A stretch of DNA of 64,000 nt. Source: Candidatus Zhuqueibacterota bacterium. GTDB lineage: Bacteria > Zhuqueibacterota > Zhuqueibacteria > Oceanimicrobiales > Oceanimicrobiaceae. The position numbers and the translations under genes were made by a program. Below the pieces are notes generated by a model. That model was not told where the DNA came from and did no database searches. It saw only the letters and a list, made by a program, of their open reading frames with translations. Within the stretch, counting starts at the first letter, position 1; each line of letters begins with the position of its first letter. Below, one piece after another: positions 48,040 to 54,722 of this stretch. The stretch lies in NCBI GenBank assembly GCA_029262005.1, contig JAJDAG010000149.1, positions 1 to 64,000 on the forward strand, read 5' to 3'.

Positions 48040-48407
48040 AAGTGAGCAGGGAAATTTTTCAACTGTGGCCTTCTATCCAAAGCATGCCCCCCTATCGTTG
48101 AATGAGGCGTTTCACTATGCCAACCTCAGGCCAATACCACCAAGCTATTGGGCCTCCAGTTATCTTAACTAAATTCAGTTGCAATTTAGATTTTTTCCTA
48201 TAAATTGTTTTCACTGGTGCAAATGTTCTGTGTAATTTTTTAAATGGTTCTGCGCATCCGTGTGTTCGCTGTTATTCTTATCTATGTAATAGCATGCCCA
48301 GGATCACTTTTTTTCAGTGCAATTCCGAGTGAGAGATGATAACAACCTGTAATGCATGCTGAATAATGCACATTACTTTACTCACCTAATTTTACTTCCG
48401 TTTGCTT
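48040..48407. other. Gap between the two signalling operons
   Basis: No gene. A GGCCAATA/TATTGGGCC partial stem near 48132-48157 may mark the end of the first signalling transcript. A weak TTGCAA-16-TAAATT promoter (48179-48206) may start the second. AT-rich otherwise. Confidence 0.4.
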
Positions 48408-50315
48408 ATGAATTTCAAGTCAAAGAATTTTCCGTTAAGTCTGTTAAGGCTTAGGGCGATCTTTTCAATCCTCTTGCTTCTTGTTATAATAGGTGAATTG
48501 TTTCGCTTTTTTACTTTGCGCAGTACTCATAGCCTGATCGAAGAAGTTTTGTGGGAAAACTTCAGTTCTTTTTCTCAGTCAGTTGCCGGTTTCACGGCTC
48601 CTTCTCTGGCCAGGGGCGATATGCCGGAATTGCAACAATATTTGGATATTGCATTTAAGAAACAGGATATGCTCTTTGTTGTGGTCAGAAATCTGGATCA
48701 GGAGGTTGTAGCACAGGCTGGCAGTTTGGCAAAGTATACACCGTTCGAAATTCATGAAAATATTTTTGAAAGTGTATCGACTCGTGTGCAGGAAATTGGT
48801 ATTGAGCCGCACGGGCTTTTTCATTTGTCAGGGCATACGTTTCTGATCACATCCTTTTTAGTGCATGATGGGCGTGATGTTGGCACATTGCAGATGGCGG
48901 TTAATTCGGCTTCCGCGAATCAACGAATGGCAAATATCAGTTTTTGGGGATTGCTGATTGGCATTGCAGTTGTTGCTTTGGGGGTCGCTCTGCTTATTTT
49001 TGTCAACCGGCGGATTAAAAGCAATATTCTTCGTTTGATTCAATTTACACGGGGCATGGCAACCGGTGATTTTTCCCAACGGGTTGAAATTAATACTGGC
49101 GATGAAATTGAGCATCTGGGTGAAACTGTTAATATGATGGCTGAGGCGGTCAAAAAAAACAAGACCCAACTTGGGCGCCTGGTTGAGCTACGGACCAGTG
49201 AACTTGAAAACGAAAAAAATAAATTGCAACTGATCCTAGATAATGTACCCAGTGCTTTTCTTATGTTGGACAAAGAGTTGCGAGTGGAATCTGTTAGTTC
49301 GCAATTCGAGAGTGTGTTAAACAAAACCAGAAATGATGTTCTCGGAAAAAAGTATGCCCTGGCTGACATTTTGTATCAAACACGCACACTTTCTCCCAGT
49401 CAGAAGGCTATTGAAACCGGAGAAATCCAGTCAGGCGATGCACACATTGTCGATCCATCCGGAGAAGATAAGTTCTTAGAGCACATGGCAATCCCGATTC
49501 ACCATAACGGCAAAAGCGGTCAAGTTCTTGAAATTGTCTCGGACATCACTGCTCGCAAGCGTTTTGAAGCACAACTTGTCCGGACAGAAAAACTATCGGC
49601 AACAGGAGAAATGGCTGCGATTATCGCGCATGAAATGAGGAATTCCCTGTCATCTGTAAACCTGATTCTGCAATGCATGACGGATAAAGAAAATCGTGAC
49701 CAGGAGGAAGGAGAGTCGATAGAAGTCGCCATTCAAGCAGTAAATAGAATGGAAACCATTGTTAGTCAATTGTTGGAATTTGCCAGGCCCAGCCAATTAA
49801 ATTATCAACAAATGAGTATTAACGAGGCCATCGATCAGAGCCTGCTGTTTTGCAAGTATCAATTGCAAAGAAAACAAATTGTGCTTAAAAAAAATCTTGC
49901 TGCCGACCTGCCACTTTTAGAACTTGATGTGGAAATAATTCGGCAAGTTTTGATAAATCTCATACTAAATGCCAAAGATGCTGTGGACAGCAAAGGTTCG
50001 CTTTCTATTGAGGCAGTTTCCTCAACTTTAAAAACCCGACTGTATGACAACTACGAACACAAATCAGTAACACTCAAAGCAGGCCAGGGCGTAGTTGAGT
50101 TGCGCGTTACCGATAACGGCTGCGGGATTTTGTCTGAGAATTTTGAACGAGTTTTTGACCCGTTTTACACCAGCAAGACCAATGGCACCGGCCTTGGTTT
50201 GACCATGGCCAGGCGGGCCATTGCCGAACACGGGGGCATTATCCTGGTTGAGAGTGAAGTTGGGCATGGCAGCACCTTCACCATTGTTTTACCAATAGCA
50301 CAAGAAAAATCTTAA
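48408..50315 (+). CDS. Membrane sensor histidine kinase with periplasmic domain, HAMP and PAS (NtrB/AtoS-like)
   Basis: Transmembrane helices at about 15-37 and 178-200 enclose a periplasmic sensor of about 140 residues with no Cys or haem motif. HAMP follows (FTRGMATGDFSQRVEI), then PAS at about 265-385 (LILDNVPSAFLMLDKELRV), HisKA with His in IIAHEMRNSLSSVN near 408, and HATPase_c with LINLILNAKDAVDSKG, VTDNGCGI and TNGTGLGLTMARRAI. The NtrB-type HExRN motif fits a partner of NtrC-type regulators, and exactly such a gene starts 19 bases after. The signal is unknown. I use the ATG at 48408; a TTG two codons earlier is in frame. Confidence 0.92.
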   Translation: MNFKSKNFPLSLLRLRAIFSILLLLVIIGELFRFFTLRSTHSLIEEVLWENFSSFSQSVAGFTAPSLARGDMPELQQYLDIAFKKQDMLFVVVRNLDQEVVAQAGSLAKYTPFEIHENIFESVSTRVQEIGIEPHGLFHLSGHTFLITSFLVHDGRDVGTLQMAVNSASANQRMANISFWGLLIGIAVVALGVALLIFVNRRIKSNILRLIQFTRGMATGDFSQRVEINTGDEIEHLGETVNMMAEAVKKNKTQLGRLVELRTSELENEKNKLQLILDNVPSAFLMLDKELRVESVSSQFESVLNKTRNDVLGKKYALADILYQTRTLSPSQKAIETGEIQSGDAHIVDPSGEDKFLEHMAIPIHHNGKSGQVLEIVSDITARKRFEAQLVRTEKLSATGEMAAIIAHEMRNSLSSVNLILQCMTDKENRDQEEGESIEVAIQAVNRMETIVSQLLEFARPSQLNYQQMSINEAIDQSLLFCKYQLQRKQIVLKKNLAADLPLLELDVEIIRQVLINLILNAKDAVDSKGSLSIEAVSSTLKTRLYDNYEHKSVTLKAGQGVVELRVTDNGCGILSENFERVFDPFYTSKTNGTGLGLTMARRAIAEHGGIILVESEVGHGSTFTIVLPIAQEKS

Positions 50316-50334
50316 GCGAGTTTGGTGCAGGTTG

Positions 50335-51723
50335 ATGAAAAAAACAAAAATAATGATCGTAGATGATGACCCGGGTATCCTCTACTCGCTCAGTCTCACT
50401 TTAAGAAAAGAGGGCTATGAAGTGGTCACCGCTGCGGATGGCAAAGAGTGTTTGCAGCTTATCAAGAAAGAAGATCCGCAAGTTGTATATATGGATATCG
50501 CCATGCCGGAAGTCAACGGTCTTGAGGCCTTGCAACAGCTTAAGGAGCAGGGAATAGATATTCCTGTGATCGTGATGACGGGACATGGCACAATGCAAAA
50601 TGCCATCCGTGCCGTGCAGTTGGGGGTTTATGAGTATGTTACAAAGCCGCTGGATCGAGAGAAAATAAAGCTGACCACCAAGCGGGCCCTTGAGACTTTA
50701 ACACTCAAGCGTGAAGTTACCGACCTGCAATCCCGACTGGGTGTTGATGATGAAATAGGCGAAATTGTCGGCCAGAGTCCTTCAATGCAAGAAGTGTATA
50801 AAGCCATTGGCTCCATTACGGCATCTTCCAATTTAACAACTGTTCTTCTTGAAGGCGAAAGCGGTACTGGAAAAGAATTGGTGGCAAAAGCAATACACGA
50901 TCATGGGCCGAACGCAAAGGAGCCGTTTGTTGCCATTAATTGTACTGTCCTGCCGGAAGCTTTGCTTGCCAGTGAATTATACGGCCATGAAAAAGGTACT
51001 TTTACGGGAGCGATTGAGCGTCGAATCGGCAAGCTCGAATTCGCCAATGCAGGCACCGTTTTCCTGGATGAAATTGGTGACATGAGCCTGGACTTGCAAA
51101 AAAAATTTTTAAGGGTTTTGCAAGAACGCCAATTTCAGCGCATGGGCAGCAACCAGACGCTGGGCGTAAATGCACGCTTCGTTACAGCCACAAACAAAAC
51201 TCTCAAAGACGAAATTGAAAAAGGTCACTTCCGTGAAGATCTTTACTATCGCTTGAATGTGGTGAATATAAAACTGCCGTCGTTGCGCGAACGTCGGGAT
51301 GATATTCCCTTGTTGATTGACCATTTTTTAAGACTACATACGCGGCATTTAGCCCAGAGTGTGAAAGCTATTTCTGACGAGGCCATGACTTGTTTGATGC
51401 GTTACACATGGCCCGGAAATGTACGTGAATTGGGAAATGTGATCCATAGCAGCGTGACGCTGGAGCAGGGTGACATCATCCACCCATCATCGCTGCCCGC
51501 TCATGTTCGAGAAACAGAAATGTCTTACCCGTATCATGCGCGAATGACAAACCTGAATCTTGAGGCAGCACGGAAACAGTTCACAGAAATGTTCGAAAAA
51601 CAGTATATTCACAATCTTTACCAGGTTGCTGAAGGGAATGTTGCCAAAGCAGCGGATATCGCCGGCGTCACGGTAAGAAGCATTCAAAGACTCTTGCAAA
51701 AATATGGCATCCGTGAAAATTAA
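50335..51723 (+). CDS. NtrC-type sigma-54-dependent response regulator
   Basis: The receiver (1-120) has VDDDPG, YMDIAMPEVNG and TKPLDRE. The AAA+ sigma-54 activation domain (about 145-310) has Walker A GESGTGKELVAKAIH, the sigma-54 contact loop GTFTGA, Walker B TVFLDEIGDM and the R-finger block RFVTATNK then EKGHFREDLYYRLNVV. The C-terminal Fis-type helix-turn-helix ends the protein (KAADIAGVTVRSIQRLLQKY). The contact loop has T in place of the usual A. It is partner of the kinase just upstream. I use the ATG at 50335. Its targets are not evident: I found no sigma-54 promoter (GG-N10-GC) before the cytochrome or hyp genes. Confidence 0.95.
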   Translation: MKKTKIMIVDDDPGILYSLSLTLRKEGYEVVTAADGKECLQLIKKEDPQVVYMDIAMPEVNGLEALQQLKEQGIDIPVIVMTGHGTMQNAIRAVQLGVYEYVTKPLDREKIKLTTKRALETLTLKREVTDLQSRLGVDDEIGEIVGQSPSMQEVYKAIGSITASSNLTTVLLEGESGTGKELVAKAIHDHGPNAKEPFVAINCTVLPEALLASELYGHEKGTFTGAIERRIGKLEFANAGTVFLDEIGDMSLDLQKKFLRVLQERQFQRMGSNQTLGVNARFVTATNKTLKDEIEKGHFREDLYYRLNVVNIKLPSLRERRDDIPLLIDHFLRLHTRHLAQSVKAISDEAMTCLMRYTWPGNVRELGNVIHSSVTLEQGDIIHPSSLPAHVRETEMSYPYHARMTNLNLEAARKQFTEMFEKQYIHNLYQVAEGNVAKAADIAGVTVRSIQRLLQKYGIREN

Positions 51724-51789: not shown

Positions 51790-52421
51790 TTGTGGCCATT
51801 ATAGAACGGGGTGTCTAAAACCTAACCGAAAACGACAATGGATTTCGCCTTTGCGACATTGGGTGTCGCAAAACATTTTTAGTTGTCAGCTTTGCTTTCC
51901 TTCCTTCCTTTTTGTTAAAATCCCGCAATTTATTAAGTTTTAAACGGTTACGATATTGCCGCAAGTGATGCTTCGGTAACTTACCCATTATGGCGTGAAA
52001 ATTGTTAGAATAAAATTGCTTTACATGCCTTGCACTTTCCAAACGACGGTTCAACTTTTTTCCCTTTGTCCGACGTAGAGTCATAAAACTCTTCTGAGTG
52101 CAATCCAGCGCGAAATCACCCAAAAAGGTTTGGATTTCTGGATTTGGGCCATTTGCCACGATAGTGGCAAACAGCGGTTCAGTTTGAATTTATTCGGCTT
52201 TGGGTTGAAAGACTAACTGCAATCATTCCGCCGATCTTTACAATATTTTTTGGATAAGAACAGCGTTACATCAATGTCGTTTCAATAGAAGATAAAGCAA
52301 CATTCGCCAAACATCAGAAACTTCATTTCTTCACGAAAGGGGGGGAGCTATTGCACACAAATTGACTACATGTTACATCACACACGAACCGAATCTGCTT
52401 AACAAGAAACAGGAGGAAAGA
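51790..52421. other. Long intergenic region upstream of the porin-cytochrome genes, with two palindromes
   Basis: A hairpin TTGCGACA-TTGGG-TGTCGCAA lies at 51851-51871. A perfect palindrome TTTGCCAC-GATA-GTGGCAAA lies at 52152-52171. A 114-codon Lys/Arg-rich minus-strand open frame spans 51815-52159 but starts with GTG inside the palindrome and has no family features, so it is doubtful; it could be a decayed gene. A weak TTGCAC-17-TACATC promoter near 52351 precedes the porin-like gene, whose ATG has a strong AGGAGGAAAG site. Confidence 0.45.
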
Positions 52422-53834
52422 ATGTCTAAGAGGCTTTTCAAAGCACCGGGGCTGCAACTTGGCCCAATTATGTTTTTGCTGTTTATTTTATTCGCGTTCA
52501 GTGCGCCCAACGATGCTGCGGCATTGCCGGCTTACGCTCGCAAATATAATCTCCGGTGTAACGTCTGTCATACCAGGGAGCCGCGTTTAAACCCGTTCGG
52601 GGAAAAGTTTATGGAAAATGGCTATCAGCTTCCGGGGACGGAAGATGGCGGTTTGACCGGTAAGATTAATCTAGGCCCGGTTTCACTGGATCCGACGCGT
52701 TATATTATGGCTGTGCGTATGCGCGCCCAGGCATTAGAGTGGTTCAAATTTACTGACAAAGGAAGCGGAGAAGAGTTTGAGAACCAGCTTAATATTGCAG
52801 CTCCGGATATTCTTAATATTTTATTTGCCGGTACTCTTAAGAAAAATATCAGTTATTTCTTTGAGTTAGAAGGCAATGTAAGGCATGAAGAATTTGGCCT
52901 TGAACGAGGGTTCTTTATATTAAATAACCTTGGTGGTTACAATATCGCCGGCCTCCGGGTCGGAAAGTTTGATCCGTCACCGTATTTTTCTTATCCGACT
53001 CATCGTCAGTTCTTGCTGCCAATTCAGCCTAAAGTTGAAGAGGGTGAGGCATTACCTGGCGCCCTGAAAAGAGCCCCCCTAGTTCCAAATGCATTTGCTG
53101 TGAAATTTTTTGGACTGTTTGATGGTGAAGGCAATGGTTTGCTTCCGCTTTTGCCTTTTTTCTTCAACAGCCCTGCTGAATTGGGTATTGATCTACATGG
53201 CAGACCGTTTGGGCCTGCGTTTCTCTATCAAGTTGGTATGTTGCAAGGCGGTGGTGCCGATGTCGAAGATTTCAACCAGGAAAAAGATTTTTATTTTATG
53301 GGTCGAGTTGACCTGGGGAGCTCAAATTTTCTTTCCGGCAGCGTATCGGCTTTTTATTACATGGCAAACAGCAGCGTTCGGGTGCCGGGGATGGTCATGA
53401 ACCCGGACACAGGTATGATGCAAATGGGCCCGGGCGAGTTTGGTGATGTTACGCGTTGGGGGATTGGCGCGAATGTACGCTGGAAAATGTTGGATTTGTA
53501 CGGCGCTTACATCGCTGACAAGGTAGAAAGTACTGACAAAATTCCAATGATGATGCGGCCGAATTTTGACGAAGATGCCTGGGGTTTAACGGTGGAATTA
53601 GATATTCTTGCCCGCGAATGGCTGATGCTTTCTACCCGCTTTGATCACATGAATGCAGGTGGAATGAAGGCGGTAAAAGCCAACAATACCGTGCTTGGCC
53701 TACAGGCAAAATTTTATCCGGTTGACAACTTTGGGTTTATTATTCGCAATGACATTAACCTTGAAGATGATGGCGTGCACCCGTTACAGCGCACACGAAA
53801 TTCGTTTATGGTTGGTGCTGAGTTTGCACTATAA
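52422..53834 (+). CDS. Outer-membrane porin-like protein with a single N-terminal haem-binding CxxCH motif
   Basis: A signal peptide (IMFLLFILFAFSAPNDAAA) is followed at once by ARKYNLRCNVCHTREPRLNP, one c-type haem motif, and then GEKFMENGYQLPG. The remaining about 400 residues are a series of amphipathic strands with aromatic girdles ending EFAL, like a porin (about 16-18 strands). Monohaem c-type porin-like proteins of this kind are known beside cytochromes in metal-reducing and denitrifying bacteria. The haem would sit at the periplasmic mouth. I use the ATG at 52422 because it has the ribosome site and begins the signal peptide. A dihaem cytochrome follows 23 bases later. Confidence 0.8.
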   Translation: MSKRLFKAPGLQLGPIMFLLFILFAFSAPNDAAALPAYARKYNLRCNVCHTREPRLNPFGEKFMENGYQLPGTEDGGLTGKINLGPVSLDPTRYIMAVRMRAQALEWFKFTDKGSGEEFENQLNIAAPDILNILFAGTLKKNISYFFELEGNVRHEEFGLERGFFILNNLGGYNIAGLRVGKFDPSPYFSYPTHRQFLLPIQPKVEEGEALPGALKRAPLVPNAFAVKFFGLFDGEGNGLLPLLPFFFNSPAELGIDLHGRPFGPAFLYQVGMLQGGGADVEDFNQEKDFYFMGRVDLGSSNFLSGSVSAFYYMANSSVRVPGMVMNPDTGMMQMGPGEFGDVTRWGIGANVRWKMLDLYGAYIADKVESTDKIPMMMRPNFDEDAWGLTVELDILAREWLMLSTRFDHMNAGGMKAVKANNTVLGLQAKFYPVDNFGFIIRNDINLEDDGVHPLQRTRNSFMVGAEFAL

Positions 53835-53857
53835 CCGCACTTGGAGGAAAGTAAATT

Positions 53858-54631
53858 ATGCTTAAATTTATCAGTTCTTTTGTTGTTTGCCTGACGGCTG
53901 TTGTTTTTTGCACCAATCTTGGTTTAGCAGAAAAGCCGCAAAGCACTGAAGATGCACTTGCTGCCGGAAAAAGTATTTACGACAAAGTGTGTTACATTTG
54001 TCATGGTTCAGAGGGTAAAGGAGACGGTCCGTCTGCGTTTTTTATGGCTGCCTACCTCGCACCCCGACCAAGGGATTTTACCGTTGGAACGTACAAGTTT
54101 CGTACAACTCCAACTGGGGAAATGCCTTCTGACGAGGATTTGTTTCGCACAGTAACAAACGGCGTGCCCGGGTTTATGCCGAGTTTTCAAGGTCTGTCGG
54201 AATCTGAAAGGTGGGAGGTTATTTTCTACATAAAAAGTATGTCTTCGGCATTTGCAGAAACGCCGGCGGTGGACCCTATTGTTATCGACAATCGCCCGGC
54301 ACCGACTGCTTCGAGCATTCAACGCGGCAGGGAAGTCTATAAAGAGTTAAAGTGTTGGGACTGCCATGGCCACAACGGTTTGGGTGATGGCCCATCTACC
54401 AACAACATGTTTGATGATTTGAAAATGAAAATGTTTGCTCAGGATCTGACCAAGCCGTTTACTTTTCGCGGTGGCGATACACCTGAGGACATTTATCGCA
54501 CTTTCATGACCGGTCTTAATGGCACACCCATGCCATCTTACGCAAAATCTCTTGAGGGCCGTGAGAAAGATGCCTGGCACATGGTGAATTATATTTTGTC
54601 GCTCGCCAGACCAAAGCGTCCTACTCCGTAA
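53858..54631 (+). CDS. Dihaem cytochrome c
   Basis: A signal peptide (SSFVVCLTAVVFCTNLGLA) precedes two class I cytochrome c domains. The first has CYICH near residue 46 and the distal Met in GVPGFMPSF near 107. The second has CWDCH near 165 and GTPMPSYAKSL near 225. Both have the SEGKGDGPSA/NGLGDGPST loop after the haem motif. The protein is soluble periplasmic and would take electrons to or from the monohaem porin encoded just before it. The long terminator at 54639-54722 closes the two-gene unit. Confidence 0.92.
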   Translation: MLKFISSFVVCLTAVVFCTNLGLAEKPQSTEDALAAGKSIYDKVCYICHGSEGKGDGPSAFFMAAYLAPRPRDFTVGTYKFRTTPTGEMPSDEDLFRTVTNGVPGFMPSFQGLSESERWEVIFYIKSMSSAFAETPAVDPIVIDNRPAPTASSIQRGREVYKELKCWDCHGHNGLGDGPSTNNMFDDLKMKMFAQDLTKPFTFRGGDTPEDIYRTFMTGLNGTPMPSYAKSLEGREKDAWHMVNYILSLARPKRPTP

Positions 54632-54638
54632 AACAAGA

Positions 54639-54722
54639 ATTGGCAGCGAATTGTGGATTGATGGAATGCCGGGCAAGAACTGCCTGCCGGACCATCAATC
54701 CATCAATTCTGCCAAATTTTCT
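54639..54722 (+). terminator. Long hairpin terminator of the porin-cytochrome unit
   Basis: GGCAG-GAATTG-TGGATTGATGG on the left pairs with CCATCAATCCA-TCAATTC-CTGCC on the right, an imperfect stem of about 22 pairs with a GC-rich top (CCGG). AAATTTTCTT follows. Confidence 0.65.

Follow-up and report, generated by a model that had tools for sequence, protein, structure and literature searches.

Do two adjacent genes of a Candidatus Zhuqueibacterota bacterium encode a route for electrons across the outer membrane, and is its design a new one? The genes lie at positions 52422-54631 of the window, the whole 64,000-nucleotide stretch analysed here (contig JAJDAG010000149.1, GenBank assembly GCA_029262005.1). 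A sequence-only reading had described them as coding for a monohaem porin and, 23 bases further on, a dihaem cytochrome c of the periplasm, which together might form a minimal electron conduit. Their coordinates and the gap of 23 bases (53835-53857) are as described there.

A monohaem cytochrome-porin of the Cyc2 family

The first gene, ORF1, has the following features:

52422..53834, forward strand: ORF1, Cyc2-type fused monohaem cytochrome-porin of 470 amino acids, assigned by the published Cyc2 criteria, full-length relatives, tree and structure
52422..52523, forward strand: likely signal peptide, residues 1-34, judged by eye from a basic start, a hydrophobic stretch and AAA before LPAYARKY
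52524..52670, forward strand: cytochrome segment, around ALPAYARKY-NLR-CNVCH-TRE-PRL-NPFG, from conservation and pLDDT
52557..52571, forward strand: haem-binding motif CNVCH, residues 46-50, the sole CXXCH of ORF1, invariant in the family
52707..53828, forward strand: 16-stranded β-barrel, residues 96-469, from AlphaFold2 and Foldseek matches to Omp32, OmpF and OprP

The ATG at 52422 is preceded by AGGAGGAAA, a strong ribosome site. As the sequence-only reading had noticed, the haem motif comes soon after the signal peptide, about 11 residues past the likely cleavage site; it is kept by each of the 32 sequences aligned for the family and is therefore not a chance occurrence. Among 95 sequences of the family, P36, R40, C46, C49, H50, P54, L56 and G60 are invariant. 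Besides His50, the family alignment holds no conserved histidine and no methionine above 81% conservation; Lys41 and Lys81 are invariant within the close family.

ORF1 has no match among the Pfam and NCBIfam models, and its sequence has none among the PDB chains. Its AlphaFold2 model, computed from 95 sequences, has a mean pLDDT of 88 and 16 long strands from residue 96 onwards, and its Foldseek matches are 16-stranded porins, including OprP (2o4v), Omp32 and OmpF. The haem segment, which was unresolved in a first model from 32 sequences, is resolved in this one, with a pLDDT of 84-89 for residues 41-70. The barrel that had been guessed from the letters is thus confidently predicted, and the barrel-free fold that would have spoken against the earlier reading did not arise.

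The fusion of a porin with a single-haem cytochrome defines Cyc2, for which the published criteria comprise the signature AXPXFAR[Q/K][T/Y], a CXXCH motif, PXL four residues on, a length of at least 365 amino acids and a porin (PMC8406198). With 470 residues and a signal peptide recognised by eye, ORF1 exceeds the minimum length; its single CXXCH, CNVCH at residues 46-50, is near the N-terminus, and PRL follows four residues past it (CNVCH-TRE-PRL). The 16-stranded barrel of the model has matches of the OprP and OmpF type, OprP being the porin on which Cyc2 was modelled (PMC8406198). The upstream signature, ALPAYARKY, fits the pattern save for a conservative change from Phe to Tyr at residue 38; most of the closest relatives have AIPAFARKY. 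ORF1 belongs to the Cyc2 family, with this one Phe-to-Tyr change as its departure from the tested criteria. The single-haem porin design is real, yet already known as Cyc2, and the idea of a new 'minimal design', which had been drawn from a comparison with MtrCAB and multihaem conduits only, finds no support. In MtrCAB, MtoAB and PioAB complexes, the porin and the multihaem cytochrome are separate proteins, whereas in the pair described here one haem is fused to the porin and two reside in its partner. Compared by the published criteria, ORF1 shares with the iron-oxidising Cyc2 proteins of Mariprofundus and Acidithiobacillus the layout, the PXL, the OprP-like 16-stranded barrel and, Tyr38 aside, the signature motif; for ORF1 itself, iron is a putative substrate.

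A genome scan returned 28 relatives of ORF1 over most or all of its length, at 34-42% identity; overall, the closest full-length relatives are at 34-43% and are mainly Cyc2 proteins from Nitrospira and Ca. Troglogloeales. All of these but two, which are from Gammaproteobacteria, are titled Nitrospirota, Nitrospirae, Nitrospirales, Nitrospira, Nitrospiraceae or Troglogloeales (26/28); the remaining 52 loci are weak matches, mainly to the N-terminal third. In a tree, ORF1 is nested in the clade of these relatives (38 rows, SH-aLRT 99; inner nodes 88 and 85), where it joins a subclade holding a Troglogloeales sequence (SH-aLRT 85). Matches at an E-value of 1e-25 or better occur in 19 of 246 Nitrospirota genomes, and in the 82 genomes of the host's own phylum (its own included) the next best match after ORF1 itself has an E-value of 2.7e-20. 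The common monohaem porin homologues of this phylum are about 400 amino acids long and usually preceded by a multihaem cytochrome. We thus find a Nitrospira-type Cyc2 with a linked dihaem carrier placed in a lineage whose other 81 searched genomes have distant monohaem porins or none detected.

Cyc2 homologues have been published in Nitrospirales and Troglogloeales (PMC9040806) as well as in KSB1, Calditrichota and others (PMC9769843). Those of Nitrospira (Ca. N. defluvii, L042) and Ca. Troglogloeales (L057) resemble ORF1 in full length, in size, in a single CXXCH after the signal peptide and in a dihaem cytochrome directly downstream, but they differ in sequence (34-43% identity; Y38 of ORF1 in place of F38), their host is Nitrospirota, which that of ORF1 is not, and no cupredoxin gene adjoins ORF1 in the window. 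By base composition, recent foreign DNA was discarded as an explanation, since the GC content of ORF1 and ORF2 (46-47%) matches that of the window.

Other monohaem proteins were seen along the way. In most of the host-phylum loci read (L003-L031), a monohaem porin of about 400 amino acids comes after a cytochrome with four to five haems. The host's own contig 141 encodes a 120-residue protein (L002:1384-1746, minus strand) with a Cyc2-like cytochrome segment; it lacks a barrel and was therefore set aside.

The dihaem cytochrome and the conserved pair

The second gene, ORF2, has these features:

53858..54631, forward strand: ORF2, exported dihaem class-I cytochrome c of 257 amino acids, assigned by Pfam, its best PDB match and conserved distal Met
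53990..54004, forward strand: first haem site, CYICH
54353..54367, forward strand: second haem site, CWDCH

Its ATG at 53858 is preceded by GGAGGAA. Pfam recognises Cytochrome_CBB3/Cytochrom_C twice in ORF2 (E-value 1e-20), and the two haem sites bear out the earlier description as a dihaem cytochrome. The distal methionine is conserved at both haems (Met107 in 100%, Met225 in 97%), which is typical of high-potential carriers and suggests a high potential for ORF2 as well. The best solved relative is chain B of PDB entry 6h5l, which we take to be kustc0457 of Kuenenia; it aligns over the whole length, including both haem sites (E-value 4e-56). No cytochrome c4 entry is found among the PDB or NCBIfam matches, and by sequence ORF2 groups with the anammox protein kustc0457, not with cytochrome c4. 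According to PMC6423088, kustc0457 is a dihaem protein that acts as redox partner to an octahaem enzyme; this enzyme is HAO-like, in contrast to the porin that accompanies ORF2.

In 45 of 49 loci, the homologue of ORF1 has one of ORF2 directly behind it in the same orientation, and we therefore regard ORF1 and ORF2 as a conserved unit; some genomes were reached twice, by separate searches, so that the 49 loci are not all independent. The four exceptions are two loci of Gammaproteobacteria, one at a contig end (L059) and L134. Within a pair, the genes mostly lie no more than a few tens of bases apart or seem to overlap by no more than that, as measured on stop-to-stop frames, which overstates overlaps. 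The distances within the two families correlate (Mantel r 0.83, 32 rows), with a contribution of shared host ancestry. The co-occurrence that the sequence-only reading had proposed to look for is thus found, conserved in Nitrospirota. Given the pairing, ORF2 is also a concrete candidate for the protein to which Cyc2 of this group first passes its electron in the periplasm.

It is very unlikely that ORF1 is an ordinary substrate porin with a haem that is structural or tunes its gating, and that ORF2 serves another enzyme. Relatives of ORF2 do work with other enzymes, kustc0457 with an octahaem reductase and others as dihaem subunits of bd-like clusters; against this, the gene adjacency is strict (45/49 loci) and the haem motif invariant. 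Neither a nitrite nor a sulfur oxidoreductase, to which the pair might have been tied, flanks it in the window.

Most Nitrospira loci of the pair additionally have a cupredoxin-like protein of about 260 amino acids and a histidine kinase. A similar order is known from Acidithiobacillus, where Cyc1 is a dihaem protein. There, cyc2 lies directly before cyc1, which encodes a c4-type cytochrome (PMC10654088). The rus operon of this genus (cyc2-cyc1-cup-cox-rus) is alike in that a cytochrome-porin gene is followed by one for a periplasmic two-haem cytochrome c, and its cup has a counterpart in the cupredoxin-like gene that follows in most Nitrospira relatives. It differs in that ORF2 is not recognised as a cytochrome c4 and that the ORF1/ORF2 cluster is without oxidase genes.

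The proposed electron path and its donor

Electron transfer across the outer membrane, the part of the earlier interpretation that stands apart from the new minimal design, is the best-supported reading of the pair, and the physiology sketched for it is plausible. In our view, the pair is probably a Cyc2-type electron-uptake unit, in which a dissolved donor, with Fe(II) as the likeliest, would give electrons to the haem of ORF1, from where they would pass to ORF2 and then to an oxidase. Its Cyc2 layout and barrel, the mainly Nitrospirota relatives, the conserved pairing, the cyc2-cyc1 order of Acidithiobacillus, the distal methionines of ORF2 and the oxidases of the host speak for this reading, as do the proposal of metal oxidation by Cyc2 of Ca. 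Manganitrophaceae (PMC9040806) and the cupredoxin or FeoB-like genes next to monohaem porins in related genomes. The computation bears out family, fold, conservation of the pair, carrier type and oxidases, whereas haem position, substrate, direction, docking and regulation are predictions. ORF1 would sit in the outer membrane as a porin whose single c-type haem, held by the small N-terminal segment, is expected to lie towards the periplasm. The haem of Cyc2 is thought to plug the periplasmic mouth of the pore, so that a dissolved donor must enter the pore to reach it (PMC8406198). A one-electron donor, most likely Fe(II), would do so in ORF1 and reduce the haem; ORF2, in the periplasm, would dock, accept the electron and carry it to the inner membrane.

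The host encodes oxidases that could receive it. Two aa3-type subunits I are present, and one of them, on contig C142, is located beside NrfD and ActD genes of an alternative complex III and a COX2 fused to cytochrome c, which identifies this oxidase as the caa3 type. Contig 57 (C57; L204:4372-10031) holds a cluster in which a bd-like oxidase subunit is accompanied by cytochromes c and by a protein that joins a dihaem domain similar to ORF2 (46%) to an ethylbenzene-dehydrogenase-type (EB_dh) domain; in its domain content, it resembles the TO_1 complex of Nitrospirota (PMC9040806). The terminal acceptor may be either the ACIII/caa3 chain or this TO_1-like, bd-like complex. One could go further and regard the Nitrospira-type Cyc2 with its fixed kustc0457-type dihaem partner as a functional subclass of its own. 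The two genes would have entered an unrelated lineage together, where their products would feed a bd-like terminal oxidase with the same dihaem domain in one subunit; outside Nitrospirota, this would make a compact chain for the oxidation of Fe(II) or Mn(II). We consider this extension rather improbable.

Fe(II) is favoured as the donor; it is what the Cyc2 proteins listed as tested in PMC8406198 oxidise. Against this reading stand the Tyr at residue 38 and the caution of Keffer et al. that confidence depends on the closeness to a tested Cyc2. In Nitrospira, moreover, Fe(II) is not an obvious donor, because those with the pair live on nitrite or ammonia. With the same architecture and direction, the donor could also be Mn(II), an organic reductant or some other dissolved compound, which we judge to be rather unlikely. 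Cyc2 of Ca. Manganitrophaceae (Nitrospirota) has been proposed for metal oxidation and, together with TO_1, for that of Mn(II) (PMC9040806), and the grouping of ORF1 with a subclade that includes a Troglogloeales sequence points in the same direction. The family-specific candidate of the Mn(II) oxidisers, however, is PCC_1, with Cyc2 being common to other Nitrospirota (PMC9040806), and the activity of the tested Cyc2 proteins argues for Fe(II).

Regulators, hairpin and neighbouring genes

The surroundings of the pair contain the following features:

48402..50315, forward strand: sensor histidine kinase (HAMP, PAS, HisKA and HATPase_c by Pfam), possible regulator of the pair
50332..51723, forward strand: NtrC-type response regulator by sequence, possible regulator of the pair
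52152..52171, no strand assigned: perfect inverted repeat TTTGCCAC-GATA-GTGGCAAA, with 8-base arms and a 4-base gap, possible regulator site (a lead only)
about 54635..54722, forward strand: long hairpin, at which transcription of the pair probably ends

The adjoining kinase and regulator may turn the pair on. Their orthologues in G004, a genome of the same family (57% identity for the kinase; 72% for the regulator, which is directly before the porin), lie ahead of another type of monohaem porin (YPWFARRLVDNCNKCHV) and of a cupredoxin-like protein (contig 234, L160:7482-9822), as if the same regulators served different porin types there and in the window. The inverted repeat is absent upstream of the G004 porin and was rejected as a shared regulator site. 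A sigma-54 promoter before ORF1 was also rejected, with the best site no better than chance at the 5% level; the bare GG-N10-GC pattern is as frequent in shuffled sequences. In G002 and G001 (L161, L162, L200), a monohaem porin, a cupredoxin-like protein, a histidine kinase and an NtrC regulator form clusters; close to that of G002 there are also a dihaem cytochrome and another small candidate for a monohaem barrel. An ORF2 homologue is found about 10 kb from the monohaem porin cluster, on the same contig, in G002 and G004.

The regulators also bear on the possibility that the pair functions in iron handling, sensing or protection, by external oxidation of Fe(II) without energy gain, or in outward electron flow. 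We think this improbable, more so than a different donor. Two-component regulators adjoin the pair, and many presumed heterotrophs have Cyc2 homologues (PMC9769843). Monohaem porins of another clade adjoin an FeoB-like gene (Gate, FeoB_C) in G027 and G052 (L164:6006-9055; L166:4518-7285), which hints at a link with ferrous iron. Against electron export, the His/Met-type haems of ORF2 are better suited to accepting from high-potential donors, and no multihaem partner adjoins the pair in the window.

The sequence-only reading had the pair closed by one long terminator. The hairpin is there (-43.9 kcal/mol, z -6.15 against shuffles), but a simple terminator scan did not flag it, so that its role as a terminator is our inference. 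A dispersed repeat was rejected as an explanation, since a genome search with the hairpin gave no significant match besides its own other strand.

Directly downstream follow hypA, B, F, C, D and E (the hyp operon), which might suggest that the pair is part of the hydrogenase system that these genes mature. This is extremely improbable: the strong hairpin separates the pair from the hyp genes, no hyp gene was identified among the conserved neighbours of the pair in its relatives, the hyp genes of G004 are on a contig without a monohaem porin, and the structural hydrogenase genes of the host itself are located on a different contig, C86.
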